The notes beneath the pieces are model-generated. The model searched no databases and was not told the origin of the DNA. It saw nothing but the letters and a program-made list of their open reading frames with translations. A stretch of 64,000 nt of DNA, taken from NCBI RefSeq assembly GCF_017310035.1, contig NZ_CP022296.1:3410001-3474000 (forward strand). The letters are read 5' to 3'. The DNA is from Nocardioides sp. S5. Its GTDB lineage: Bacteria; Actinomycetota; Actinomycetes; Propionibacteriales; Nocardioidaceae. Below are positions 1,728-59,855 of the stretch, piece after piece (position 1 is the first letter of the stretch; every line of letters begins with the position of its first letter). The position numbers were made by a program, and so were the translations under genes.

Positions 1728-3520
<1,793 letters not shown>

Positions 3521-3528
<8 letters not shown>

Positions 3529-3601
3529 CCAGGCAGGTCGAGGTGGCGTGGGCGACGAGCCTGCCGGAGGCGTCGGTGAGCGGAGCCGTCACCGCAACCG
3601 C
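3521..3601 (-). pseudogene. Possible hotdog thioesterase C-terminal remnant
   Basis: Just beyond the IclR stop, in a different frame, the minus strand reads AVAVTAPLTDASGRLVAHAT then STCLVMQ. This closely resembles the last strands of PaaI-type hotdog thioesterases. There is no start codon and no room for the rest of such a domain, because the upstream DNA codes for IclR. It could be the stump of a gene deleted when the IclR gene moved next to it, or a coincidence. Confidence 0.3.
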
Positions 3602-4224
3602 TCGGCCACCTCGTGCGCCGCTGCCATCACCTGCGGCGCCACGACGTCCTCGTCGATCGCGCCGTCCAAGGTCACCACGCCCACGCTGGCGTGCAGGCCC
3701 TCGACGCCCAGCACGGGGGCGGCGAGGCCGCGCGCGCCGGACTGCAGCTCGCCGCTCGTGACGGCGTACGCCGACCCGGCCGGGTCGGTGAGCGCGATCG
3801 CCTTGCCGGCCGCACCCTGCGAGAGCGGATGGCGGGCGCCGACGCGGTAGGACACGTGGAAGTCGGTCCACGTGGGCTCCACGACCGCGAGCGCCAGCGC
3901 CTCGTCACCGTCGGCGACGGTGAGGTGCGCGGTGGAGCCGACCGACTCGGCGAGGCGGCGGAGCACCGGCATCGCGAGGTCGCGCAGCAGCGGCTGGACC
4001 CCGCTGGCCAGGTGCAGCACGCCCAGCCCGACGAAGAGGCGCGAACGGGCGTCGCGGCGTACGAGCCCGTGCTGCTCGAGGGTGCTGACGAGGCGGTAGA
4101 CGACCGTGCGGTTGACCTGGAGGCGTCCCGACAGCTCGGTGACGGTGAGTCCGTCGGGGCTCTCGGAGAGGACCCGCAGCACCCTCAGCCCGCGGTCGAG
4201 CGTCTGCGAGGTCTCCGAGGGCAT
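3589..4224 (-). CDS. IclR family transcriptional regulator
   Basis: A 211-residue protein. The N-terminal winged HTH is at about residues 8-62 (LRVLRVLSESPDGLTVTELS, then VNRTVVYRLVSTLEQHGLV). The IclR effector-binding domain follows (LAESVGSTAHLTVADGDEAL, GAAGKAIAL). It is shorter than the usual roughly 250 residues, and the effector domain ends early after AHEVAERLR. Its target is unknown. It is convergent with the Lrp-type gene and downstream of the helicase, so no operon partner identifies its regulon. Confidence 0.85.
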   Translation of the reverse strand: MPSETSQTLDRGLRVLRVLSESPDGLTVTELSGRLQVNRTVVYRLVSTLEQHGLVRRDARSRLFVGLGVLHLASGVQPLLRDLAMPVLRRLAESVGSTAHLTVADGDEALALAVVEPTWTDFHVSYRVGARHPLSQGAAGKAIALTDPAGSAYAVTSGELQSGARGLAAPVLGVEGLHASVGVVTLDGAIDEDVVAPQVMAAAHEVAERLR

Positions 4225-4279
4225 GTCACGAGCCTAGCCGGGGGCGACGGAGTCGCACCCGGCGTGACGAGGGAGGTCC

Positions 4280-6058
4280 TCAGGACGTCTGACGCATCGC
4301 CCACTCGCGGATCCGGTTGATCCGCTCGTGCAGCTGCTCCGCGTTGGCGACGGCGGCGGGCGGCCCGCCGCACTCCTTGCGCAGCGCCGAGTGGGTGATG
4401 CCGTGCGCCTGGCCGGTGCGGTGGTGCCACGCGGCGACGAGACCGTTGAGCTCGCGGCGCAGCACCCCGAGCTGCTGGTGGGTGCTCATCTGCGCCACCG
4501 ACTCCACCACGCGGTCTCCCCCGCCGTCGGCGCGCTGCTTGCGCGCCCGCTCGCTCTGGCGCGAGTGCAGGAGCTCGCGCACCTGGTCCGGCTCGAGCAG
4601 GCCGGGGATGCCGAGGAAGTCCATCTCCTCCTCCGAGCCTGCGTGCACCTCGCCGGAGTGGCCGAACTGGGCGCCCTCGTAGAGGACGTGGTCGAAGGAC
4701 GCGGTGGACCCGAGCGCCTCCCACGACATCTCCAGCTCCTCGGACGTCCCCTCCTCGGCGTTGGCCTGGGCGAGCAGGTCGTCCTCGGCGGCGAAGATGT
4801 CGCCCTCGTCGGTGACGCGGCGCCCCAGGACGTGGTCGCGCTGCGCCTCCATGTCGGAGGCGAACTCGAGCAGGTGTGGCACCGACGGCAGGAAGACCGA
4901 CGCCGTCTCACCGCGCGAACGGGCACGCACGAAGCGGCCCACGGCCTGGGCGAAGAACAGCGGCGTCGAGGTGGTGGTCGCCCACACGCCGACGGCCAGG
5001 CGCGGCACGTCCACGCCCTCGGAGACCATGCGCACGGCCACCAGCCAGCGCTTGTCGGAGTCGGTGAAGGTCGCGATCTTCTTCGACGCGCCCTTCTCGT
5101 CCGAGAGCACCACGGTGGGCGACTCGCCGGAGATCTTCTTCAGCAGCCCGGCGTAGGCGCGCGCGGTCTCCTGGTCGCTGGCGATGACCATCCCGCCGGC
5201 GTCGGGGACGTGGCGGCGTACCTCCGACAGGCGTCGGTCGGCGGCCTGCAGCACCGCCGGCATCCACGACCCCTTCGGGTCCAGTGCCGTACGCAGCGCG
5301 TGGGCGTGCATGTCCTTGGTGAGCGGCTCGCCGAGGCGCGCGGTGATCTCGTCGCCGGCGCGGGTGCGCCACTGCATCTCGCCCGAGTAGGCCATGAACA
5401 GCACCGGGCGCACGACGTGGTCCGACAGCGCGTGGGCGTAGCCGTAGGTGTAGTCGGCGACCGAGGTGGGGATGCCGTCGTCGCCCGGGGCGTAGGTGAC
5501 GAACGGGATCGGGTTGATGTCGGAGCGGAACGGGGTGCCGGTCAGCGAGAGCCGGCGGGTCGCGGGGTCGAACGCCTCGCGCACGCCCTCGCCCCAGGAC
5601 AGGGCGTCGCCGGCGTGGTGGATCTCGTCGAGGATGACCAGGGTCTTCGAGCGCTCGGTGCGGATCCGCATCGCGAGCGGGTTGACCGCGACGCCGGCGT
5701 AGGTGACCGCGATCCCGACGTAGTCGTCGGAGGTGCGCCCCTTGCCGGCGGAGTAGGCGGGGTCGATCGGGATGCCCGCACGTGCGGCGGCCTCGGCCCA
5801 CTGGGTCTTCAGGTGCTCGGTCGGGGCGACCACGATGATGCGGTCGACGACGCGCCGACCGAGGAGGTCGGCGGCGACGGTCAGCGCGAAGGTCGTCTTG
5901 CCGGCACCCGGGGTCGCGACCGCGAGGAAGTCACGCGGCTGGCGCGAGGCGTAGAGGTCCATCGCCGCCTGCTGCCAGGCACGCAGCGAGGGCGCGGTGC
6001 CCCAGGCGGCCCGGTCGGGCCACGCGGGAGGCAGCGGCGCGTCTGGGCGCCCCGTCAC
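4280..6058 (-). CDS. DEAD/DEAH-type superfamily 2 helicase
   Basis: A 592-residue SF2 helicase. Walker A ATPGAGKTT is at about residues 48-56, motif II is DEIHH, motif III is LTGTPFR, and the C-terminal lobe ends with QAVGRFVRARSRG. The N-terminal RecA lobe resembles UvsW/XPB-like DNA helicases common in actinobacteria. The last 150 residues are charged and helical. An in-frame upstream start exists, but the GTG at 6058 overlaps the DUF3039 stop by 4 bases (GTGA), the common coupling arrangement, and starts right before a normal N-terminus. A role in DNA repair or remodelling is likely but the substrate is unknown. Confidence 0.85.
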   Translation of the reverse strand: MTGRPDAPLPPAWPDRAAWGTAPSLRAWQQAAMDLYASRQPRDFLAVATPGAGKTTFALTVAADLLGRRVVDRIIVVAPTEHLKTQWAEAAARAGIPIDPAYSAGKGRTSDDYVGIAVTYAGVAVNPLAMRIRTERSKTLVILDEIHHAGDALSWGEGVREAFDPATRRLSLTGTPFRSDINPIPFVTYAPGDDGIPTSVADYTYGYAHALSDHVVRPVLFMAYSGEMQWRTRAGDEITARLGEPLTKDMHAHALRTALDPKGSWMPAVLQAADRRLSEVRRHVPDAGGMVIASDQETARAYAGLLKKISGESPTVVLSDEKGASKKIATFTDSDKRWLVAVRMVSEGVDVPRLAVGVWATTTSTPLFFAQAVGRFVRARSRGETASVFLPSVPHLLEFASDMEAQRDHVLGRRVTDEGDIFAAEDDLLAQANAEEGTSEELEMSWEALGSTASFDHVLYEGAQFGHSGEVHAGSEEEMDFLGIPGLLEPDQVRELLHSRQSERARKQRADGGGDRVVESVAQMSTHQQLGVLRRELNGLVAAWHHRTGQAHGITHSALRKECGGPPAAVANAEQLHERINRIREWAMRQTS

Positions 6059-50204: not shown

Positions 50205-50722
50205 CCATATTGAGGAATGCTTCGGGGCGGAATCCACCGGTCAAAGCAACGCTGAGTGTGAGGCGGTGTTGTGAGTGTCGAAGGTGTTTGCCTACGAGGT
50301 CTATGAGGAGTTCTTCGAACTGGTCTGCGGCGGGGTGCCGGTGTCTCGTGCGGCGCGGTTGCTCGGCGTGTCGGATGACGCGGCAACCAGGTGTGGCGAC
50401 GCTCGGGCCTCATGAGTCCTGTGATCCAGTTTGGCGCGACCGGAGGCCTGCCCGGCAGCGCTGCGCCGACGGTGCCCGGCGTTGTCGGCCCCGACGAGCC
50501 CGCACGGCAACTACGGCCCTTGACCGGTGAGGATCGCTCAGCGATCGCAGTCGGTCTGATGTGTGGCTGCTCCTATGCCCAGATCGGGTCGATGATCGGG
50601 CGCGACAAGTCGATGGTGTGCCGTGAGGTCGCCCGCAACCGCGGACCTGACTGTCGCTTGCCACGGTGATGGGACCACCTCGTTGCCATGAGCATGGGAC
50701 CACCCGAAGGTGTGGGTGAGCA

Positions 50723-51526
50723 TCACAGGGCCTCGCTTCCTGGGTCAATGTCGGCGCGCTGGTTGAGTCGGTCTCGTTGCCGGTAGGAGGGGCCTTCGAT
50801 GACCAGGGTGTGCGCGCCTGAGGTGAGTCGGTCGATCGCGGACTGGGCGAGCAGCGCGTCGCTCATCATGGCCAGCCACTCGGCGGGGTCCCGGTTCGAG
50901 GTCACGATGGTGCTCGCGCGGCGGTGGCGTTCGACGATGATCTCGTAGAAGTCGTTGGTCTCGGTGGCCTCGAGCCGTCGTAGCGCGAAGTCGTCGATGA
51001 TCAGCACGTCGACGCGGGCGAGCTTGCGGATCTCGGCCTCGAGGGTGTTGTCGAGTCGGGCGGCGCGGAGCCGGGTGAACAGCTTGTCGGCGCGGGCGAA
51101 GTGGACGCTGAGCCGGCGTCGGATAGCGGTGTGGCCGAGCGCTGATGCGAGGTGGGTCTTCCCGACGCCGACCGGGCCGAGGATCAGGGCGCCGTGGCCG
51201 GCCTCGGTGAACCGCAGGCTGGTCAGGTCCGACAGCAGGGTCCGGTCGTAGGAGAGGTCGTCGAGCTCGTCCCAGGCTTCCAGCCGCATCGTGGGGTCCA
51301 GCCCGGCGGTGCGGGCGCGCAGCATCGCCGAGCGGGACTCCCGGCGAGTGATCTCGTCGGCCAGCACCAGCTCGAGGAACGCGGCATGGCCCATCTTGCG
51401 TTGCTTGGCCAGCGCGAGCCGCTCGGGCAGGGTGTCCTTCAGACCGCCGAGCTTGAGCGCCTTCAGTGTCCGCATCAGGTCGGTCCCGACCGGATCGACC
51501 GGCCCGACCTTGGTCGTTGTGCTCAT
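50723..51526 (-). CDS. istB: IS21-type helper ATPase IstB (element 1)
   Basis: A 267-residue AAA+ ATPase. Walker A GPVGVGKTHLASALG is near residue 105, Walker B VDVLIIDDFAL near 165, and the sensor region VTSNRDPAEW near 207. IstB assists the IstA transposase in target selection. The ATG at 51526 overlaps the istA stop by four bases (ATGA), the usual translational coupling. The protein itself appears intact. Confidence 0.93.
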   Translation of the reverse strand: MSTTTKVGPVDPVGTDLMRTLKALKLGGLKDTLPERLALAKQRKMGHAAFLELVLADEITRRESRSAMLRARTAGLDPTMRLEAWDELDDLSYDRTLLSDLTSLRFTEAGHGALILGPVGVGKTHLASALGHTAIRRRLSVHFARADKLFTRLRAARLDNTLEAEIRKLARVDVLIIDDFALRRLEATETNDFYEIIVERHRRASTIVTSNRDPAEWLAMMSDALLAQSAIDRLTSGAHTLVIEGPSYRQRDRLNQRADIDPGSEAL

Positions 51527-52743
51527 CGGGTGGGCTCCAGGTCTGTGCCATCCCCGGCGACCCGGCCGCCGGGGATGAGGGTGAGCCGGACGCTGCCGCG
51601 ACCGGAGTACTCCTTGGGGTCGCGAGCGAACCGGCCGCCCTGGGCGTTGTGGCCGGAGCCGGCTGCGGCAGGCAGCACCGGCTGTTCGCGCTCGGTGGCC
51701 TTCTCGAGCATCGAGGCGATCTTCGACACGCTGACCACGTCGAGGTCCAGCGCTCGTGCGCAGGCGTTCTCGACCGGCTCTGGGCCGTAGCGGCGGACCA
51801 GACCTTGTAGCCGGTACACGCTGCGCATCCTCGTCCAGGGCAGCGGATCGTCGAGCAGCCGCTCGGCATAGATCCCGATGTTCTCCCCGTGCCCGGCGCA
51901 CACGCCGATCAGCTTGGTGAGGTCTCGCAGCGCGTAGCCGGTCTTCTCCTCGGGCAGGTCCTCACGGTCCGTGGACCGTCCGCCGGGCGGCTGCCGTGGG
52001 TGGGTCTTGACCAGCCGGCCCGGTCCCACCTGGCCGGTCCGGCCGGTGGTGTAGAGCTTGACCAGCTCGCTGTCGGCGCGAGCGTCCAGCTGGCGGCCCA
52101 GGTATGGCTCGGGCACCGAGTAGAGCGCCTTGGCGACCTCGACGTGGAAGTCGCGGTGCACCTTGACCCGCTTGAACACCGGCACGTCATAGGGCTCCGG
52201 GGCCGGCAACAGGCAGCTCGCTTCGAGCTCGGCGAACGCCTCGGCCGGTCGGGCCTGGGTGGTGCCGTGGATCCGCATCCCGGCCCGCTGCGCACACCAT
52301 GCCTCGACGCGAGCCTGCGCATCGGCGAGGTCGGTGAAGGACTCCCCGGCCCAGAAGTTGCCGCGCACGTACTGCACCACCCGCTCCACCCGCGGCTTGT
52401 CCTGCGGCGAGCGGATGGGCCCTGCCCCCGGATCTTGGACACAGGGTGTGATTACGCAGCGGGTTGCAGCGTAGCGGCGTAGTTGGACTCGTAGGTGGAC
52501 GGGGACAGGTAGCGGCACCAGGAATGGCGTCGGCGGGTGTTGTAGCGCACGAGCCACTTGAAGACCTGCCGGCGACACGTCGCCTCGTCGCTCCAGCAGG
52601 CGGCGTCTTGGAGGATCTCGCGCTTCATCGTGGCGTTGAACGACTCCGCCAACGCGTTGTCGGCCGAGGAGCCGACCGCACCCATCGACTGGGTGACGCC
52701 GAGCCTCTTGCAGAGCTTGGCGTAGTCCTTCGAGCAGTAGACC

Positions 52744-54239
52744 TTGGGTTCAACCAGTCGATGCAACACTGGGTTGTTGAAGCGAGCGTAGTTGCTCATC
52801 GAACACCTCGGCAGGTGTCTTCCACCCAAGGATCTTGCGGGGCCGGTTGTTGAGCGCGTGAGCGACGGCCTCGAGGTCCTCGGCGGACCAACGCGACAGG
52901 TCCGTGCCTTTGGGGAAGTACTGGCGCAGCAGGCCGTTGGTGTTCTCGTTGCTCGGCCGCTGCCACGGCGAGTGGGGGTCGGCGAAGAACACCTTCGTGC
53001 CGGTCTCCAACGCGAACTGCGCGTGACCCGAGAGCTCCTTGCCGCGATCCCAGGTCAGGGTCTTGCGCAGCTGCTCGGGCAGCTTGGTGATCGACGCACT
53101 CAGCGCCGCGTTCATCGCGACGGCCCCGTAGCCGCCGAGCGATGGACCGTTCTTCACGTAGGGCTTCTCGCCCCAGCCCTCCATGCGTGGCAGGTGGACC
53201 AGGATCGTTGAGCGGCTGCTGCGCTCAACGATCGTCCCGATCGCCGACCGGCCAGTGCCGATGATCAGGTCGCCCTCCCAGTGACCCGGGACGGCGCGGT
53301 CTTCGGCTTCAGCGGGGCGCTCGCTGAGAACCACATCGGCCGTGACATGCCCACCGGGCTTGTTCTGCGATCGGGCCCTCGGCTGCCGTAGCGCACGTCC
53401 GGTGCGCAGACACGTGACCAGCTCGCGCTTGAGCGCACCACGCCCCTCAATGAACAGCGACTGGTAGATCGCCTCGTGGCTGATGCGCATGGACTCATCA
53501 TCGGGGAAGTCGACCTTCAACCGCTGTGCGATCTGCTCCGGGCTCCAGGCCAGCGACCAACGCCGGTCGGCACGGTGCGGCTTGTTCAGCCCCTTCCAGG
53601 GGGCCGGTGTGGGGCCAGTGACGATCGTGCCGTCGGGCCGGCGAACGTTGCCGGCGAGCCGATCTTGGACGTACTCCCGCAGTTTCGGGTTCTCGAGCAG
53701 CTTCGCGGTCTTGGGGCGCTTGGCCGCCTGCTGTGCCTTCCACTGCGCCACGGTGGCCCGGTACTCCTGCTTCCCCCCACGAGTCGCAGCGTTGCGGCGC
53801 AACTCGCGTGAGACCGTTCCGGGATCACGCCCGATCGCGCGGGCGATCTCGCGAACGCCCTTGTCCTGGGCGTGCAGGATGGCGATCTCCTCACGTTCCT
53901 CGAAGCTCAGATAGCGGCCGGTGGGCTCGGCCAGCGAAATGGGCGGCATGCCGCCAGCGTGGCGAAACCAGCGGGTCCCAACCGGCACTGACACACCGAC
54001 CGCCAGCGCCGCTTCTGCCGACGTGATGCCCGTGGCGATCAGCCGCCAGAACTGCCGTTGCACCGCTCGGGACGGGTCAGGACGCCCGGGCGAGCGCATC
54101 GCTGGCCGCAACGCCCGGTCAGCACGCCACTGCCGGCGAAGCTCCTCTGGCGCGTCGCTGGTCTTCTTGCTCCAGTCCGCTGTCGCCATGCTCGAACACC
54201 TCCGAACTCAAGGTGTTGCGACGACCGGTTGATTTCGCC
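52744..54239 (-). mobile_element. IS30-family element inside IS3 OrfB
   Basis: The 1,496-bp innermost element has imperfect terminal repeats TTCAACCAGTCGATGCAACA (left, at about 52749) and ATCAACCGGTCGTCGCAACA (right, opposite strand). A GACC target duplication is at 52740-52743 and 54240-54243. It contains one long transposase gene. Being uninterrupted and inside two other elements, it is the youngest insertion of the stack. Confidence 0.9.
52750..54189 (-). CDS. IS30-family transposase (innermost, intact)
   Basis: A 479-residue protein. The N-terminal HTH regions are at about 50-75 (ATGITSAEAALAVGVSVPVG) and 90-135 (YLSFEEREEIAILHAQDKGV, then IGRDPGTVSRELRRN). The DDE catalytic part has WEGDLIIG (first Asp), LTWDRGKELSGH (second Asp) and SPWQRPSNENTNGLLRQYFP (Glu). 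The C-terminus is NNRPRKILGWKTPAEVF. All family motifs are present, so the enzyme is likely active and could mobilise the element. Confidence 0.95.
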   Translation of the reverse strand: MATADWSKKTSDAPEELRRQWRADRALRPAMRSPGRPDPSRAVQRQFWRLIATGITSAEAALAVGVSVPVGTRWFRHAGGMPPISLAEPTGRYLSFEEREEIAILHAQDKGVREIARAIGRDPGTVSRELRRNAATRGGKQEYRATVAQWKAQQAAKRPKTAKLLENPKLREYVQDRLAGNVRRPDGTIVTGPTPAPWKGLNKPHRADRRWSLAWSPEQIAQRLKVDFPDDESMRISHEAIYQSLFIEGRGALKRELVTCLRTGRALRQPRARSQNKPGGHVTADVVLSERPAEAEDRAVPGHWEGDLIIGTGRSAIGTIVERSSRSTILVHLPRMEGWGEKPYVKNGPSLGGYGAVAMNAALSASITKLPEQLRKTLTWDRGKELSGHAQFALETGTKVFFADPHSPWQRPSNENTNGLLRQYFPKGTDLSRWSAEDLEAVAHALNNRPRKILGWKTPAEVFDEQLRSLQQPSVASTG

Positions 54240-54844
54240 GACCGACCCGTGGTCGCTGTGGAAGATCGCGCCCTTGAGGGTGCCGCGGGTTCCGGCAGCA
54301 GCCTTCAAGGCGTCCTCGACGAGCTCGGTGCGCATGTGGTCGGCGACGGCCCAGCCGGCGAGGCGACGTGAGTAGCAGTCGATGACGGTCGCCAGGTACA
54401 GGTTCGTCCCGTCGGCCAACGGCAGGTAGGTGATGTCCCCGACGTAGCGTTCGTTCGGGGCTTCGGCGGTGAAGTCCCGGTTGAGCAGGTCGGGGTACTT
54501 CTGCCCCGATGGCTCGGGGATCGTGGTCCGCACTCGACGCTTCTTCACATAGCCACGGATGCCCTCAAGGCGCATCACCCGGGCGACGCGCTTGTGGTTC
54601 ACGCGGTCGCCGGCAGGTGCGCCGTCGTTGAGCTCAGCGGTGATCCGTGGCGCACCCTGGGTGCTGTCCTCGGCATGCACCGCTCTGATCCGTTCCGCGA
54701 GCTCGGCATCGGCTCGGGTGCGCTCCTCGCGTGCTGGGGCCGCCTTGAGCCAGGCGTAGTAGGACGAGCGCTCGATCTCGACGAGCTCGCACAGTCGCTT
54801 CACCTCGAAGGTGGTGGAGTTGTCGGCGACGAACTGGAAGCGAC

Positions 54845-55213
54845 TCACCAGCGCGTCTCCCCGGCGAAATATTTGGCCGCCCGTTGGAGGATCTCGCGCT
54901 CGGTGGTGAGCTTGGTTGTCTCGACCTCGAGCTCGTTCACCCGGGCCTGAAGCCGGGCGATCTTCTGTTCCGGTGTCTCCTCGGGCGCCGCCGACGGGCT
55001 CCTGGACGAGCTCTTGGACTGCAGTGGGCTGGAGGTCAGCGTCCCGTCAGCGGCGGTCTTCTTGCCGGTCCCGTAGGCCTCGAGCCAGTGCCGCAGCGTG
55101 CCGCGCACGATGCCGAGGTCATCGGTGATGCCGCGGACCGTGGCGCCCGGGGTGGACTCGTACAAGTCGACGGCCTGACGACGGAACTCCTCGGAGTAGT
55201 TCTTCCTGGCCAT
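54845..55213 (-). CDS. IS3 OrfA helix-turn-helix protein
   Basis: A 122-residue protein. The N-terminal HTH is RKNYSEEFRRQAVDLYESTP then VRGITDDLGIVRGTLRHWLE. A leucine-zipper-like stretch QKIARLQARVNELEVETTKL follows. This is the standard OrfA of the IS3/IS150 group. The ATG at 55213 gives the conserved start; a GTG ten codons earlier is possible. The gene is intact although its OrfB partner is split. Confidence 0.92.
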   Translation of the reverse strand: MARKNYSEEFRRQAVDLYESTPGATVRGITDDLGIVRGTLRHWLEAYGTGKKTAADGTLTSSPLQSKSSSRSPSAAPEETPEQKIARLQARVNELEVETTKLTTEREILQRAAKYFAGETRW

Positions 55214-56592
55214 GATTCTCGGATCATCTCGCTTCCCCAGCACCAGATGCTGGATTCAGCGTGTCCAAGAACCGGGGTCAGGCCCCGATCCGGGCCGGGT
55301 CGGTCCCGAACCCGACGTGCTGGGCGTAGTCCAACCAGCCCACGTTCAGCGTCGGGTTCACCGCGTCGGCGTCGGTCACGACCGGCTTGAGGTTGTCCGG
55401 GATCAGCACCTTGAAGGCGCCGCCGAAGAACCGCCAGGCTGCCTCGCAGCCGGCGATCACCGCGACGAGCGTCTGGGAGTAGGTCAACCACACGAACATG
55501 TGCCTGCTGACCACGGCAGTGAAGATCAGCGCGTGCACCTTCCGCCGGCGACCGGTCTCCGGGTCGGTCAGGTAGCCCATCTGGGCGAAGTCGACCTGGC
55601 ACTCCACGCCCGGCTCGCCGTCGGCGACCCGCACCGTGGTCCTCTTCGGTCGGAATCCGCACCGCTCGACCGCGAACCGGTGCAGCGTCCGGTACGACAC
55701 CACGCACCCCTGCCGGGCGAGCAACTCCTCGATCTTCACGATGCTCAACGGCTCGGCGCCGTCGCCGCCCTTGACCCAGGCGCTGATCTGCTCCTCGTGA
55801 GCCAGCAGTAGCTCCCACGAAGCGCCGTGCCCGTTCGGCCGTGCCGGCCGCACCGCCTCGACCACGACACCGACCAGCTCATCGGTGAGCGCCTCGACAC
55901 CCGCGTCGCGCGACAGGCCGGCGGCCTCGGCCGCGGCCACGTACCGGCGAGCGGTCTTCCGGTCCACACCGGCCCGCTCGGCGACCTTCCGCAGCCCCAA
56001 CCCCGCGAGCCACGCCCGCAGCACCTCGAACACCTCAACCACGCTGACCTCCCTGAATCCCACCGCTGACGACCTCCGCGCCGACTGACCTGACGCGGCG
56101 ATCCAACGGCCGAACCGAGGACCCACCGGCCAGGCGCGCCGGGTGGTCCCATGACTGGCAATCCAGGTGGTCCCATGAACCTGGCAGAAAACCGCTCAGA
56201 GCGGTCCCATGCTCATGGCAGGCGACACTGACGGCTCCCACTGGGCCCCGGTCGCGCACCGGGCCGCCCACGAACGACGACATCGCCCCAAGGAGAGACC
56301 AAGCTGTCGCAAAACCCGGCGCTGTGCGGATGCGGTCAACCGGCAGTGGGACACCGGGCCCCAACACCCGTCTAGGTTGTCCGTGGCCATGAAAAAGTCC
56401 CCACTGGTGGCCAGGTAGCGGTCCCCACTGGTGGCCATGTCGGGTCCCCGGTGATGGCCAGGTCGAAGTCCCCGCTCCTCGTTCTTCGCGTGTTGTAACG
56501 GCTCGTGAGGGCCCTGCGTGGTGACGGTTGGCGATGTCTGGTCAGCCGTCGTCACCACGCAGGGGTCTTCATTGAAGAACGAGAGAGAACGA

Positions 56593-58149
56593 ATGGACAT
56601 CATTTCGGCCTACCGCGAGGTGGGCACTTACCGGGGAGCGGCCGAGTTGTGCGGCACGACCCACAAGACGGTGCGTCGGGTCATCGACGCCCACCAGGCC
56701 AGCAGTCGCGGCGAGCCGCCGGCGCCGCGGGTGGAGCGGGGTCGCAACTACGACTCGGTCGCCCACCTGGTCGCGGAGAAGGTCAACGACACCGTCGGCA
56801 AGATCAGCGCGAAGCGGCTGCTGCCGGCCGCGCGTGCGGCTGGGTATGAGGGGTCGGACCGGAACTTCCGGCGGCTGGTCGCGGACGCGAAGCGCGAGTG
56901 GCGCATCGGGCAGGCCCGTGCTGGCGGACGCCGACCGGCGGTGTGGACCCCGGGTGAGGTACTCGCCATCGACTGGGGCACCGAGATCGTGGCCGGCCGA
57001 CGGGTGCACGTGTTCTGTGCGGTGCTGGCCTGGTCGCGCTACCGGTTCGTCCGGTTCGGCCCCGATGAGCAGCAAACCACCACCCTGGCGCTGCTGGCCG
57101 AGTGCTTCGAGGAGCTCGGCGGGGTGCCGAAGCTGGTGCTGGCCGACCGGATGGCCTGTCTGAAGGGCAACGTGGTCGCGAACGTGGTCGTCCCGGCACC
57201 GGACTACGTCCGGTTCGCCGCCCACTACCGGTTCCGGCCCGACTTCTGCCACGCGAGCGATCCGGAATCCAAGGGCATCGTGGAGAACCTCGTCGGCTAC
57301 GCCAAGGACGACCTCCTCGTCCCCTTGAGGCTTGAGGACGACGCGACCGTGTGGGCAGGCGGCTATGCCGGACTGAACACCCGCGCGCGAGCCTGGTGCA
57401 CGGAGGTCAACGGCCGCCGGCACAGCGAGATCCACGCGATCCCGGACGACCGGCTGGTCACCGAGCGTGACCTGCTCGGCGAGCTGCCGTCGCTACGGCT
57501 CGAGGTGGGTCCCGCCCCGATCACCAGGAAGGTGGACAAGCTCTCCTGCATCCGATTCGGGTCCGCGCGCTACTCGGTCCCGAACCGGCTGATCGGGCGG
57601 ATCGTGACGGTGCTGGTCGACGAACGCGACCGGATCCTGCGCGTGATCGAGCCGATCACCGGCGAAGTCCACGCCGAGCACGGGCTGGTGGCGCCGGGTG
57701 AGACCAGCATCGACGACGCCCACTACGACCGGCCCCGACCGGCCACACCCGAGCGTCGGGCGCGGGGCCGGACCGTGGCCGAGAAGCAGTTCTTGGCCCT
57801 GGGTCCAGTGGCCGAGCAGTTCCTGGTCGGTGCCGCCGCGGCCGGGGTCACCAAGCTCAACACCGAGATAGCCACGGTGCTGGACCTGGGCGCCGCCCAC
57901 GGCACCGACGCACTGCAAGCGGCGCTGGAACGTGCGGTGGCGTTCGGGAGGTGGCGTTCCGACGACGTCCGGTCGATCCTGGCCACCAACGGACACGCAC
58001 CCCGACCCACCCCGGCCGGGCAGGCGCTGGTGATGACCCTGCCCACCGTCCCGACCCGAACGCTGGACGCCTACCGGATCAATCCCGACGCCCGACCAGC
58101 CGCAGGACCGCTCCTGGACGAAGCCGTGGACGGCGGTGACGTGTCGTGA
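56593..58149 (+). CDS. istA: IS21-type transposase IstA (element 2)
   Basis: A 518-residue protein from the ATG at 56593. The HTH is REVGTYRGAAELCGTTHKTV. The integrase core has VLAIDWGTEIVAGRRVHVFC (first Asp), KLVLADRMACLKG (second Asp) and DPESKGIVENLVGYAKDDLL (Glu). The C-terminal IS21 domain contains GSARYSVPNRLIGRIVTVLV. GTG 56518 and TTG 56572 are in-frame alternatives; the preceding KNERER is family-like, so the TTG may be used. The stop overlaps istB by four bases. Confidence 0.93.
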   Translation: MDIISAYREVGTYRGAAELCGTTHKTVRRVIDAHQASSRGEPPAPRVERGRNYDSVAHLVAEKVNDTVGKISAKRLLPAARAAGYEGSDRNFRRLVADAKREWRIGQARAGGRRPAVWTPGEVLAIDWGTEIVAGRRVHVFCAVLAWSRYRFVRFGPDEQQTTTLALLAECFEELGGVPKLVLADRMACLKGNVVANVVVPAPDYVRFAAHYRFRPDFCHASDPESKGIVENLVGYAKDDLLVPLRLEDDATVWAGGYAGLNTRARAWCTEVNGRRHSEIHAIPDDRLVTERDLLGELPSLRLEVGPAPITRKVDKLSCIRFGSARYSVPNRLIGRIVTVLVDERDRILRVIEPITGEVHAEHGLVAPGETSIDDAHYDRPRPATPERRARGRTVAEKQFLALGPVAEQFLVGAAAAGVTKLNTEIATVLDLGAAHGTDALQAALERAVAFGRWRSDDVRSILATNGHAPRPTPAGQALVMTLPTVPTRTLDAYRINPDARPAAGPLLDEAVDGGDVS

Positions 58150-58925
58150 CCGCCACGACCCCGCCGCCGCTGGCCACCGACCTGAACGACGGACTGAAGC
58201 GGCTCAAGATGGCCGCGATGCGCCGCCTGGCACCCGAGCTGCTCCTCACCGCGAAGACCCAACGCTGGAACCCCGAGGAGTTCCTCCGCACCCTCATCGA
58301 GGCCGAGATCGCCTCACGTGATGAGTCCAACCGGCGTACCCGGATGCGACAAGCCGGCTTCCCGGTCACCAAACGACTCGAGGAGTTCGACGTCGCCGCA
58401 TCCTCGATCCCACCGGCCACGTTCGACTACCTCGCCAGCCTGGAGTGGATCCGCGCCGCCGAGAACGTGTGCCTGATCGGGCCCGCCGGGACGGGGAAGT
58501 CACACACCCTGATCGCACTCGGGATCGCGGCAGTCGAAACAGGTCACCGGGTCCGTTACTTCACCGCCGCCGAACTCGTCGAGACCCTCTACCGCGGGCT
58601 GGCCGACAACTCCGTCGGGAAGGTCATCGAGAACCTGCTGCGCCACGACCTGCTCCTGGTCGACGAGCTCGGGTTCGCGCCGCTGGACGACACCGGCGCG
58701 CAGCTGCTGTTCCGGTTCGTCGCGGCTGCCTACGAACGCCGCTCGCTCGGGATCGCGTCCCACTGGCCCTTCGAGTCCTGGGGACGGTTCCTGCCCGAGC
58801 ACACCACCGCGGTCAGCATGCTCGACCGGCTCCTGCACCACTGCCACACCGTCGTCACCGACGGCGACTCCTACCGAATGAAACAGGCCCGAGCGAACGG
58901 AGGAACCCGCCTCAAGAGCAACTGA
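58146..58925 (+). CDS. istB: IS21-type helper ATPase IstB (element 2)
   Basis: A 259-residue AAA+ protein. Walker A GPAGTGKSHTLIALG is near residue 112, Walker B HDLLLVDELGFAPL near 165, and the sensor strand IASHWPFESWGRF near 205. The GTG at 58146 overlaps the istA stop by four bases. It is intact and should support transposition of element 2. It shares only the fold, not close sequence, with istB of element 1. Confidence 0.94.
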   Translation: MTATTPPPLATDLNDGLKRLKMAAMRRLAPELLLTAKTQRWNPEEFLRTLIEAEIASRDESNRRTRMRQAGFPVTKRLEEFDVAASSIPPATFDYLASLEWIRAAENVCLIGPAGTGKSHTLIALGIAAVETGHRVRYFTAAELVETLYRGLADNSVGKVIENLLRHDLLLVDELGFAPLDDTGAQLLFRFVAAAYERRSLGIASHWPFESWGRFLPEHTTAVSMLDRLLHHCHTVVTDGDSYRMKQARANGGTRLKSN

Positions 58926-59005
58926 GAACCCACGAGGGGTGGGGACTTTCAGTTGGCCACCAGTGGGGACCACGACTTGGCCATTGACACTAGGTCTGGG
59001 TCGGC

Positions 59006-59119
59006 GACATCAAATGCCGACGTCGGCATTTGATGTCCTATGCCGATCTCCGGTCTATGCCGACCAGCCCGCCAAGGGCGCAGGTCATGAGCGGTACTGA
59101 GGTTCGGAAGGTCGGCATA
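59006..59119. repeat. 32-bp perfect palindrome with repeated ATGCCGAC half-sites
   Basis: Bases 59006-59037 are a perfect palindrome without a loop; the left half is GACATCAAATGCCGAC. Its centre holds two ATGCCGAC half-sites back to back (59014-59021 and 59022-59029). Further copies are at 59040-59047 (ATGCCGAT), 59057-59064, and inverted at 59111-59118; TATGCCGACC and GGTCGGCATA at 59056-59065 and 59110-59119 form a 10-bp inverted pair. The spacing resembles a multi-site operator or a resolvase res region. No protein partner is encoded next to it. Confidence 0.7.
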
Positions 59120-59855
59120 GCCGCATAGTCGTCACGCTGCAGACACGGAGTGTCTGGAGGTGAGTTCCGTCACGAGAAGATCGCCGACGGCCCGGCCGCA
59201 CGCGGATCGAGTTCCGCGGATACCGGTGGGTCCCTTGGCGCCAACAGTGCGGGGCGAGTGCTCGGCTGAGTATGAGCTACGTGCCCCACCGCCGTACTCA
59301 TGCGGCCATGCCATCTCTTTCCAGCCGCGGTTGCCAAGGGCACGGCTGAAGTCTGGGTCGAGGCCACCCAGCCACGAGTCAACGCCCGGGGACGAAGGCC
59401 CCTCGGGCCAGTTGATCGCGCAGGAACGACCGCACTTCAGCGCGCAGACTATCCGCTGCGGGTGGCTATGTGGCCGCTGGAAGGTTGAAGCATGGATGCA
59501 CCACCCCTTGCTTTCTTATAATCAAACTCAATGTAGCAAAAGTATCAGGAATAGGCTATGAATGGTAGGAGACTTCCTTGTCCGAGTCGCGCCTGCCACG
59601 CGCTGCACGGAGCGCAGCTTGAGCAGTCACTTGTCCATCCTCGGCGGCTAGGACTGGGGCCGAAGCGCAGACCGGTCGGAGTTCGGAGTTGCACATGACA
59701 GTGGTTGGAGGCTCGTCCCTTGGTGAGAGGTACGTCCCCGGTGACTTGAGGCCGCGGACCTGGGTGCGACAACGCGGACAGCTCTCGTCGATGCTGAGGG
59801 TCAATGCTCACGCAGCTGACGTCGCTCGGGCCTGTGCCCGAGAGTTGGGCGAGGA
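59120..59855. other. 736-bp stretch without recognisable genes
   Basis: Beyond the half-site cluster there is a small hairpin, CAGACAC-GGA-GTGTCTG at 59140-59156, followed by GGAGG and a GTG at 59160 that opens a frame with no recognisable domain. At 59500-59560 the DNA is distinctly AT-rich. A minus-strand frame at 59556-59804 contains two CxxC-like spots but no domain I can name. The region looks like decayed intergenic DNA. Confidence 0.5.

Follow-up and report, generated by a model that had tools for sequence, protein, structure and literature searches.

Some mobile elements are specialised on other mobile elements. IS4321 and IS5075, of the IS1111 group, reportedly take the terminal repeats of the Tn21 family as their target, and IS1383 and the Tn402-type res hunters hit the ends or res sites of other mobile elements. 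The IS30-family element at the heart of the insertion-sequence nest described here appears to have a similar habit, but where those elements hit ends or res sites it hits codons for the active site of a transposase. Within its own family, IS1655 of Neisseria serves as one comparison element. For Escherichia coli IS30, the cited account describes preferred target sequences that are near-palindromic hot spots or the element's own inverted repeats (PMC9333248). Our element and E. coli IS30 thus belong to the same family and both have preferred sequences, whereas the motif found here is one-sided, lies among the catalytic codons of a different IS family and has the target-site duplication (TSD) at its edge. 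ISLxc3 of Leifsonia, also of the IS30 family, is 1511 bp long with ends CTT and GCC, and its authors are quoted as finding no conserved target (PMC2516522). Its ends are of the same kind as those of our element, and the "NTG" duplications given for two of its copies in that account (PMC2516522) would read CAN on the other strand, as here. ISLxx5 of Leifsonia is a further comparison element of the family.

A pneumococcal MITE, RUP, is reported from more than six families of IS elements, where transposase genes are inactivated, and a role in IS control has been proposed for it (PMC2229807). RUP is non-autonomous and has a TA target, with no fixed codon given in the cited part of that account (PMC2229807), whereas the IS30 element here uses one fixed codon. 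A search of the full-text literature, with most subscription papers and the IS databases outside its coverage, returned no report of IS30 elements that target IS3 transposase genes; PMC2430713 and PMC8811144 had no bearing on the matter. What we describe looks like widespread predation of one genetic parasite on another.

Architecture of the nest and order of arrival

The window, that is, the whole 64-kb stretch of DNA analysed, contains the elements listed in Table 1. An earlier note had described them as a nest, and exact coordinates together with copies elsewhere in the genome bear this out: IS21-1 lies in a relic IS30-family gene, IS3 in the istA of IS21-1, and IS30 in the OrfB of IS3. Intact copies of IS21-1, IS21-2, IS3 and the inner IS30 are all present elsewhere in the same genome.

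Table 1. Elements of the nest and their parts, in window coordinates
Feature	Position	Strand	Basis
Relic IS30-family transposase gene ("old IS30"), 5' part	50226..50651	+	blastn, intact homologues L182/L183
Relic IS30-family gene, continuation past IS21-1	56230..56327	+	homology end = 56327
IS21-1	50652..56227	-	TSD CTGAC 50647-50651 / 56228-56232
IS21-1 istB	50723-51541	-	IstB Pfam
IS21-1 istA pieces	51523-52416 and 55290-56069	-	NCBIfam transpos_IS21
IS3::IS30 composite, 2870 bp	52417..55286	-	TSD GAT 52414-52416 / 55287-55289
IS3 OrfA	54845..55243	-	NCBIfam transpos_IS3, model positions 1-90
IS3 OrfB, N-terminal part, last codons H-S-D-H-G-S-V at 54260-54240	54240..54848	-	NCBIfam transpos_IS3, model positions 90-285
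IS3 OrfB, C-terminal part	52452..52742	-	NCBIfam transpos_IS3, model positions 287-369
IS30 insertion target, 21 bp coding HSDHGSV	54240..54260	-	V codon GTC 54240-54242, duplicated at 52740-52742
Inner IS30 element, 1497 bp, IS3-hunting clade member	52743..54239	-	seven 100% copies in genome
Inner IS30 transposase gene, 479 aa (P0001)	52750..54189	-	NCBIfam transpos_IS30 + HTH_38
IS21-2	56378..58989	+	TSD CTAGGT 56372-56377 / 58990-58995
IS21-2 istA and istB	56584-58149 and 58146-58925	+	Pfam
Possible IS3 OrfB codons VWVGDI (first catalytic Asp), then 18-bp palindrome 59013-59030	58994..59030	+	weak, HMM E 0.024

Members of the IS21 family make TSDs of 4-8 bp; IS21-1 and IS21-2 encode IstA and IstB, have TSDs of 5 and 6 bp, and belong to this family. 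Two uninterrupted 2703-bp copies of IS21-1 (L005 and L007, 100% identity) have TSDs GGCGG and AGGAC, and two further 100% copies of IS21-2 have GGGGG and ATCGAG. The host of the inner IS30 is assigned to the IS3 family by OrfA/OrfB, its terminal repeats (imperfect, 26 bp, at the ends of the composite) and a 3-bp TSD, and two uninterrupted 1370-bp copies (TSDs GAA and GTC) equal the window IS3 minus IS30, apart from two SNPs. The inner IS30 is placed in its family by a match to transpos_IS30 NF033563 (244 bits, cut-off 80) and by HTH_38. Its transposase frame is open, its ends are imperfect terminal inverted repeats that share TCAACC-GTCG--GCAACAC when read directly, and its TSDs in this genome, GAC, TTG and CTG, fit the 2-3 bp duplication of the IS30 family. 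The duplications proposed earlier for IS21-1, IS21-2 and IS3 hold, other copies of these elements having TSDs of their own, whereas the GACC proposed for the inner IS30 shortens to GAC (3 bp), as two solo copies with identical element ends show TTG and CTG; the extra C is due to chance. Removal of each insert with one duplication leaves open frames, as had been claimed, with istA equal to the uninterrupted copies and OrfB reading through, and each inner element is indeed younger than the gene it breaks. The old relic, of an IS30 subgroup other than that of the inner IS30, shares 72-73% and 69-70% DNA identity with the homologues of two relatives (435 and 410 aa). It had been described as hit twice, which is correct for IS21-1; a hit by IS21-2 requires IS30 homology on both sides, but the homology ends at 56327 and none was found in 58990-59600 past IS21-2, so that the second hit is unsupported.

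The composite of IS3 and IS30 has four more copies in the genome (99.9-100% identity), one of them, L001 at 3664228, with TSD CAC. The earlier note regarded the order IS21-1, then IS3, then inner IS30 as fixed, and named recurrence of the composite, as one unit, at unrelated sites of related strains as evidence against this; such recurrence was found within this genome, and the fixed four-step order was abandoned once the composite turned up at five places, since one hop could have brought both elements. Because two SNPs, one to the left and one to the right of IS30, are common to the window composite and L001 but missing from both uninterrupted IS3s, a single hop of the composite into istA appears no less likely than two arrivals, and it takes fewer events. 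It is somewhat less likely than not that IS3 entered IS21-1 first and that IS30 inserted there afterwards: a site-specific IS30 entering several IS3 copies separately would leave identical junctions, and uninterrupted copies of both IS21-1 and IS3 exist, but the window and L001 have in common the two SNPs that both uninterrupted IS3s lack. The duplications at L001, L034, L155 and L056 (the last three read by eye) support IS30 riding on IS3 in trans. Mobility of the composite is nevertheless not decisive for one hop. In Brachybacterium, the IS3 arms of L055 and L056 differ at 51 positions, essentially none of them in the common interior, which is identical. Because these arms have diverged around an identical interior, identical composites could also stem from gene conversion or repeated targeted insertion, and identical nested insertions at several places do not require one origin.

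Target site and extent of the IS30 clade

The seven identical IS30 copies of this genome occupy one OrfB codon in three IS3-family OrfBs, five in one kind and one in each of two others, with the junctions HSDHGS/V, HSDAGS/Q and HSDRGS/Q (slash, insertion point). A relative of 69% identity in the same genome lies at HSDRGV/Q, another of 81% has HSDRGSV on one side, and a scar marks one further such insertion. Insertion occurs immediately behind the H-(S/T/A)-D-x-G-x codons, and the next codon (3 bp) is duplicated; the D of H-S-D-x-G-S is the second catalytic Asp, and OrfB is split between this residue and the catalytic Glu. We propose an IS3-orfB-hunting clade of IS30 elements, to which the inner element is assigned by its clean insertion after HSDxGx codons. 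Rather than making a random hit on what had been called a "safe landing site", the inner IS30 went to the usual target of its clade, the catalytic codons of IS3 OrfB.

Clean insertions, those with both flanks and a 3-bp TSD (itself a selection criterion), came from 58 genomes including this one, the best 80 loci of one search, 394 genomes and seven plasmid records. Genome loci were chosen by transposase similarity alone. Of the 68 distinct clean insertions that the clade has made outside this genome, 58 are in IS3 OrfB (57 by both sides, 1 by one side), or 52 of 62 when the six from hand-picked plasmid records are set aside, and CAYNNNGAY is found in identical register at all 58 IS3 insertions. 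When every entry with two usable flanks is counted, TSD or not (n=104), IS3 lies on both sides of 66, on one side of 22 and on neither side of 16. Orientation varies within the clade: it is opposite at 7 of the 57 two-sided clean sites, and L147 and L158 show both orientations within a single genome.

Among 18 hand-picked plasmid records (52-84% identity), IS3 OrfB adjoins the element on at least one side in 18/18; six (H7, H25, H40, H51, H53 and H60) already named an IS3 transposase in their search listing, and the 12 whose listing named none all adjoin IS3 OrfB as well. These plasmid-borne members span Actinomycetota, Pseudomonadota and Deinococcota. In control IS30 relatives (39-54% identity), hand-picked with clinical records skipped and L026 represented by one flank only, IS3 was present at 0/20 rows, or 0/18 distinct places. 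The upstream control scan of L026 and L049 fell within the gene, and whole-locus scans of L026, L049, L174, L176, L177, L178 and L180 found no IS3. The first HMM run omitted matches below 55% identity; L024-L026, L032, L044 and L045 were covered in the control scan. L205, a damaged relative from a set of six further plasmid records, has half an IS3 OrfB 14 bp after its gene, and a statement that nothing at or below 54% identity lies in IS3 was softened. The clade boundary is not sharp, because L205 (52%) adjoins IS3 and L026 (54%, one flank) is without it.

Recognition of the target and competing explanations

Ten of the 68 clean insertions lie outside IS3; CAYNNNGAY is kept in register at five of these and missing from the other five. 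Since half of these off-target sites keep the motif, DNA itself is probably recognised, and protein coding alone becomes a weaker explanation for the motif. Six distinct non-IS3 clean sites, a set fixed before three more were found, were scored by the IS3-derived motif: five rank within the top 0.73% of background, and L125, the sixth, ranks at 0.94% by the better of its two strands. On its own, the motif (with the T) is insufficient, because it occurs six times in the 64-kb window alone.

Judged from these comparisons of sequence, the clade of the inner element is very probably specialised for insertion into IS3-family transposase genes. We envision that its transposase recognises DNA, with CAYNNNGAY, 21 to 13 bp ahead of the insertion site, as the core and less strict flanking bases around it, probably via an N-terminal domain (residues about 28-88) and/or a linker (134-213), both of them specific to the clade. 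The N-terminus has 59% identity within the clade vs 25.5% to controls, and none of 16 controls aligned with the linker over 60% of its length. Insertion would disable the IS3 copy and mostly spare host genes, and the broken IS3 could then be moved in trans by another IS3 copy, carrying IS30 onward; in the window the outcome would be the IS3::IS30 unit now in the istA of IS21-1.

It is very improbable that these IS30 elements insert widely and persist only where they have hit a dispensable IS3 gene. The host can indeed do without IS3 genes, which are multi-copy, with 73 IS3-model matches in this genome, pieces included, but harmlessness cannot fix an exact nucleotide, and the exact register excludes survivorship as the main cause. 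Distant relatives, moreover, lie away from IS3 at all control places, and a five-copy IS30 relative in this genome is found in a palindromic repeat at 4/5 places (read by eye). Even less credible is descent of these pairs from a single ancient IS3::IS30 composite that spread as a unit while diversifying. Recurrent composite units are indeed seen within genomes, but the divergence of IS30 and IS3 is uncorrelated (rho -0.01 and 0.10), 253 of 347 IS30 pairs with at least 85% identity lie in IS3 genes less than 50% alike (upstream side), and orientation varies. The targeted OrfBs number 63 distinct sequences with median flank identities of 42% and 33%. Elements of the IS1111/IS110 types are described as RNA-guided (PMC11187229), and a long target (about 20 bp) that is tolerant at codon third positions might suggest a guide RNA, rather than the transposase protein, here too. 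We give this scarcely any weight: the 1440-bp gene in a 1497-bp element leaves 50 bp on one side and 7 bp on the other, which offers a guide RNA gene little space, and the encoded protein is a DDE transposase that has an HTH domain.

IS3 active-site codons as a possible landing pad

RIT-type elements consist of three overlapping tyrosine-recombinase genes. One at L204 (genome G275) has genes at 1888-2877, 2874-3824 and 3824-5107 on the minus strand, with PF00589 in all three; it is the only complete one, and copies in the Nocardioides genome are incomplete. The 18-bp palindrome that closes Table 1 recurs at the first-Asp codons of other IS3s, where the OrfB signal is stronger than in the window, and in one genome IS30 and the RIT-like element are both in the same OrfB. 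We tentatively raise the possibility, at somewhat short of an even chance, that the active-site codons of IS3 are a general landing pad, with the IS30 clade at the second Asp and a three-recombinase (RIT-like) element at the first, both of them hyperparasites that silence IS3, spare the host and spread via intact IS3 in trans.

A transposon clade whose sequence-specific predation falls on another family's most conserved codons would be a clear and testable case, a parallel to the homing elements lodged in conserved active-site codons. Such predation would account for many "IS nests" and broken IS3 genes, and could act as a natural brake on IS3 activity. It also makes one ask by what means a DDE transposase can read a ~20-bp coding motif and yet tolerate synonymous change.

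One codon in IS3-family transposase genes

The inner IS30 of the nest, a 1497-bp element within OrfB of an IS3 element, and its two solo copies in the same genome interrupt three different IS3-family OrfBs at one codon: HSDHGS|V, HSDAGS|Q and HSDRGS|Q, where the bar marks the insertion point. A 69% IS30 relative in this genome is inserted at HSDRGV|Q and its second copy has a C-terminal OrfB half on one side; an 81% relative is bordered by HSDRGSV at one of its ends. At 1969590 a ~20-bp scar of an IS30-type end, recognized by eye, is followed, again at that codon, by the C-terminal half of an OrfB. At these insertion places, matches to the IS3 profile NF033516 are split at model positions 285/286. 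The Asp in HSDxG is the second of the two in the catalytic DDE triad, and the 35 residues between this Asp and the Glu in the window OrfB agree with that reading. Since OrfB is cut between Asp and Glu, the IS3 copy should be disabled. In this genome the 81-83% IS30 relative that lies beside an IS3 piece (L014) has its own sequence split by ~1.7 kb of other DNA.

Loci in other genomes were chosen by transposase similarity alone, from 58 genomes including this one (matches in 11), from the top 80 among at least 494 matches in a contig scan, and from 394 genomes of the class including this one (22 with a match; the best 30 places made loci); 27 plasmid records were picked by hand from search hits. 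Among the best 80 contig matches, the named transposase relatives nearest to the query are from Nocardioides, so the source is likely an environmental actinobacterium. Flanks were scored one by one with profiles built from 8 uninterrupted IS3 OrfBs. Two usable flanks were present in 104 of the 129 entries (15, 80 and 27, plus 7 plasmid records), with IS3 OrfB on both sides in 66, on one side in 22 and on neither in 16. Requiring a matching 3-bp duplication and removing three duplicates gave 68 distinct insertions: 50 co-oriented with OrfB, 7 opposite, one bordered by IS3 at a single end and 10 lacking IS3. The motif CAYNNNGAY begins 21 bp before the insertion in all 58 IS3 cases. Hand-picked plasmid records account for six of the 68, all in IS3; excluding them, 52 of 62 lie in IS3. 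In two loci the IS30 sits between like halves of OrfB in inverted order, N-terminal halves on a Cupriavidus pinatubonensis plasmid (L163) and C-terminal halves in Streptomyces sp. NBS 14/10 (L131), arrangements that could come from recombination between oppositely oriented copies.

Across 63 distinct targeted OrfBs the median flank identities are 42% and 33%, and that of the IS30 transposases is 74%. IS30 divergence set against IS3 divergence gives Spearman coefficients of -0.01 for one flank and 0.10 for the other, and 253 of 347 IS30 pairs at least 85% identical lie in IS3 genes less than 50% alike on the upstream side. These sequence comparisons argue that the placement of IS30 in IS3 genes is a matter of repeated insertion, not of descent.

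Probable target recognition and the extent of the clade

The 45 distinct clean IS3 sites, drawn from this genome, the 58-genome sample and the top 80 among at least 494 scan matches, share invariant bases: CA at -21/-20, GA at -15/-14, GG at -9/-8 and T at 0. Because protein conservation alone would yield invariant bases, the off-target sites matter. CAYNNNGAY stands in register at 5 of 10 clean non-IS3 insertions (L053, L118, L121, L154 and L159). Motif scoring covered seven of the ten (L092 and L093 are one target; L154, L157 and L159 were found later, outside the scoring) and gave forward-strand background fractions of 0.00003 to 0.0072 for six and 0.0094 on the better strand for the seventh, L125; L074, which is without a duplication, scored at background level. 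The bare motif is common, with 6 matches in the 64-kb window, and therefore further bases contribute to targeting. Residues 28-88, the transposase N-terminal domain, show 59% identity among clade members against 25.5% to controls (aligning in 81% of pairs), and the linker, residues 134-213, aligned over 60% of its length with none of 16 controls. Judged by this clade specificity, the N-terminal domain and linker would be the candidate target readers.

In Propioniciclava, Leucobacter and Actinomyces (L092, L093 and L111) a related element occupies one non-IS3 sequence, GAGTGTCGTTCTGTG, with a target duplication in L092 and L093 and none in L111; this sequence is perhaps part of another mobile element.

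All 18 plasmid records at 52-84% identity adjoin IS3 OrfB at one end or both, and their hosts comprise Actinomycetota, Alpha-, Beta- and Gammaproteobacteria and one Deinococcus. For six, the listing had already named an IS3 when they were picked; the remaining 12 score 12 of 12. Among controls at 39-54% identity, IS3 was found at the junction in 0 of 20 rows (18 distinct places); in one, L172, IS3 lies 380 bp off, away from the junction. The boundary of the clade is not sharp, because a damaged 52% record annotated with an IS3 fragment (L205) adjoins IS3 OrfB. Among the controls, a 44-49% relative present five times in this genome (L046-L050) lies by eye between palindromic repeat halves GGTAGTCCACCGGG ... 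CCCGGTGGACTACC in 4 of 5, and its target appears to differ, being palindromic repeats. In a tree of 139 transposases, 131 clade members separate from 8 controls (node support 0.75; 0.98-0.99 for the next two nodes), and orientation in OrfB switches several times within the clade. Of 8000 scored protein candidates 7995 pass E 1e-100, a count of relatives whether inside or outside the clade, and the names among the 120 listed are the generic 'IS30 family'.

The nest and the movement of composites

Elements of the nest and sites of the RIT-like element or its palindromic end
Feature	Position	Other copies in this genome
IS21-1	50652-56227	two IS3-free copies, 2703 bp, duplications GGCGG and AGGAC
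IS21-2	56378-58989	two more copies, duplications GGGGG and ATCGAG
IS3	52417-55286	two uninterrupted copies, 1370 bp, duplications GAA and GTC
Inner IS30	52743-54239	two copies in other IS3 kinds, duplications TTG and CTG
Palindrome site	window 58994-59030	
Palindrome site	L012 ~4019-4083	
Palindrome site	L013 ~5110-5174	
Palindrome site	L192	
Palindrome site	L204 1781-5199 (full element)	

All layers named in the earlier note are present, and their ends could be set without guesswork because other copies of each element exist in the same genome, a single contig of 4.75 Mb in which the window spans bases 3410001-3474000, with a GC content of about 70%. The ends of the other copies correct the inner IS30 duplication from GACC to GAC. 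Matches to intact IS30-family transposase genes of two relatives (435 and 410 aa) at 50226-50651 and 56230-56327 flank IS21-1, which was therefore inserted into an IS30-type gene, as had been proposed. That IS21-2 also interrupts this gene was not borne out: the homology stops at 56327, and none was found at 58990-59600, right of IS21-2, in comparison with the two relatives' genes, so IS21-2 may lie within or beside the relic. An alternative for the bases at 58994-59011 is that they encode part of an IS3 OrfB (VWVGDI), a stretch too short for a good score (E 0.024 against the IS3 OrfB profile).

The nesting stands, but the proposed order of arrival, IS3 followed by the inner IS30, is not fixed: the IS3::IS30 composite occurs at five places in the genome, and the simplest history of the window copy is that a ready-made composite hopped into istA. 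The window composite has the duplication GAT and a 100% identical one at 3664228 (L001) has CAC; the other three have none. Substitutions at 52616 and 55126, which lie to either side of the IS30, are common to the window and L001 composites, where the other three and both uninterrupted IS3 copies carry the alternative base. The hop is unproven because this site-specific IS30 would give an identical junction in every copy of that IS3 it entered. Composites flanked by 3-bp or 4-bp duplications at L001 and, by eye, in other genomes at L034, L155 and L056 are consistent with mobilisation in trans by an intact IS3; the partner copies L028, L137 and L055 lack a duplication. Composite copies may also come from gene conversion or repeated targeting, a possibility raised by L055/L056 of Brachybacterium squillarum, two copies that share an identical interior but differ in their IS3 arms.

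The same Brachybacterium IS3 holds both the IS30 and an element whose protein, judged by eye, is IS110-like. In this genome, L002 and L003, both composites without duplications (about 162-187 kb), have a flank ending in the same GAG, on the right of L002 and on the left of L003, suggesting a ~19 kb inversion between two inverted composites.

A second element in OrfB, and known relatives in habit

In exact form, an 18-bp palindrome near IS21-2 is present three times in this genome, once in G032 (2 of 58 genomes including this one) and once in G275 (2 of 394 including this one). At four of the five the adjoining frame scores as an IS3 OrfB that stops with the first catalytic Asp (E 6e-9 to 1e-17), two of these, both in this genome, being near-identical; at the fifth, in the window, the frame is too short to score as IS3 OrfB. 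G275 carries a full element of ~3.4 kb with three overlapping tyrosine-recombinase genes, splitting OrfB at ...WVAD|, and the same OrfB (L204) is also split by a clade IS30 at the second-Asp codons, HSDRGV|Q. A RIT-like three-recombinase element, or its palindromic end, directly follows first-Asp codons of IS3 OrfB.

No description of IS30 targeting IS3 transposase codons was found in searches of the open full-text literature, a scope outside which IS databases and most subscription papers fall. Two papers (PMC9333248; PMC2516522) describe IS30-family elements with sequence preferences, which the clade resembles in its sequence-preferred insertion. It also resembles RUP (PMC2229807) and IS4321/IS5075 (PMC11187229, via its reference list) in preying on other mobile elements.
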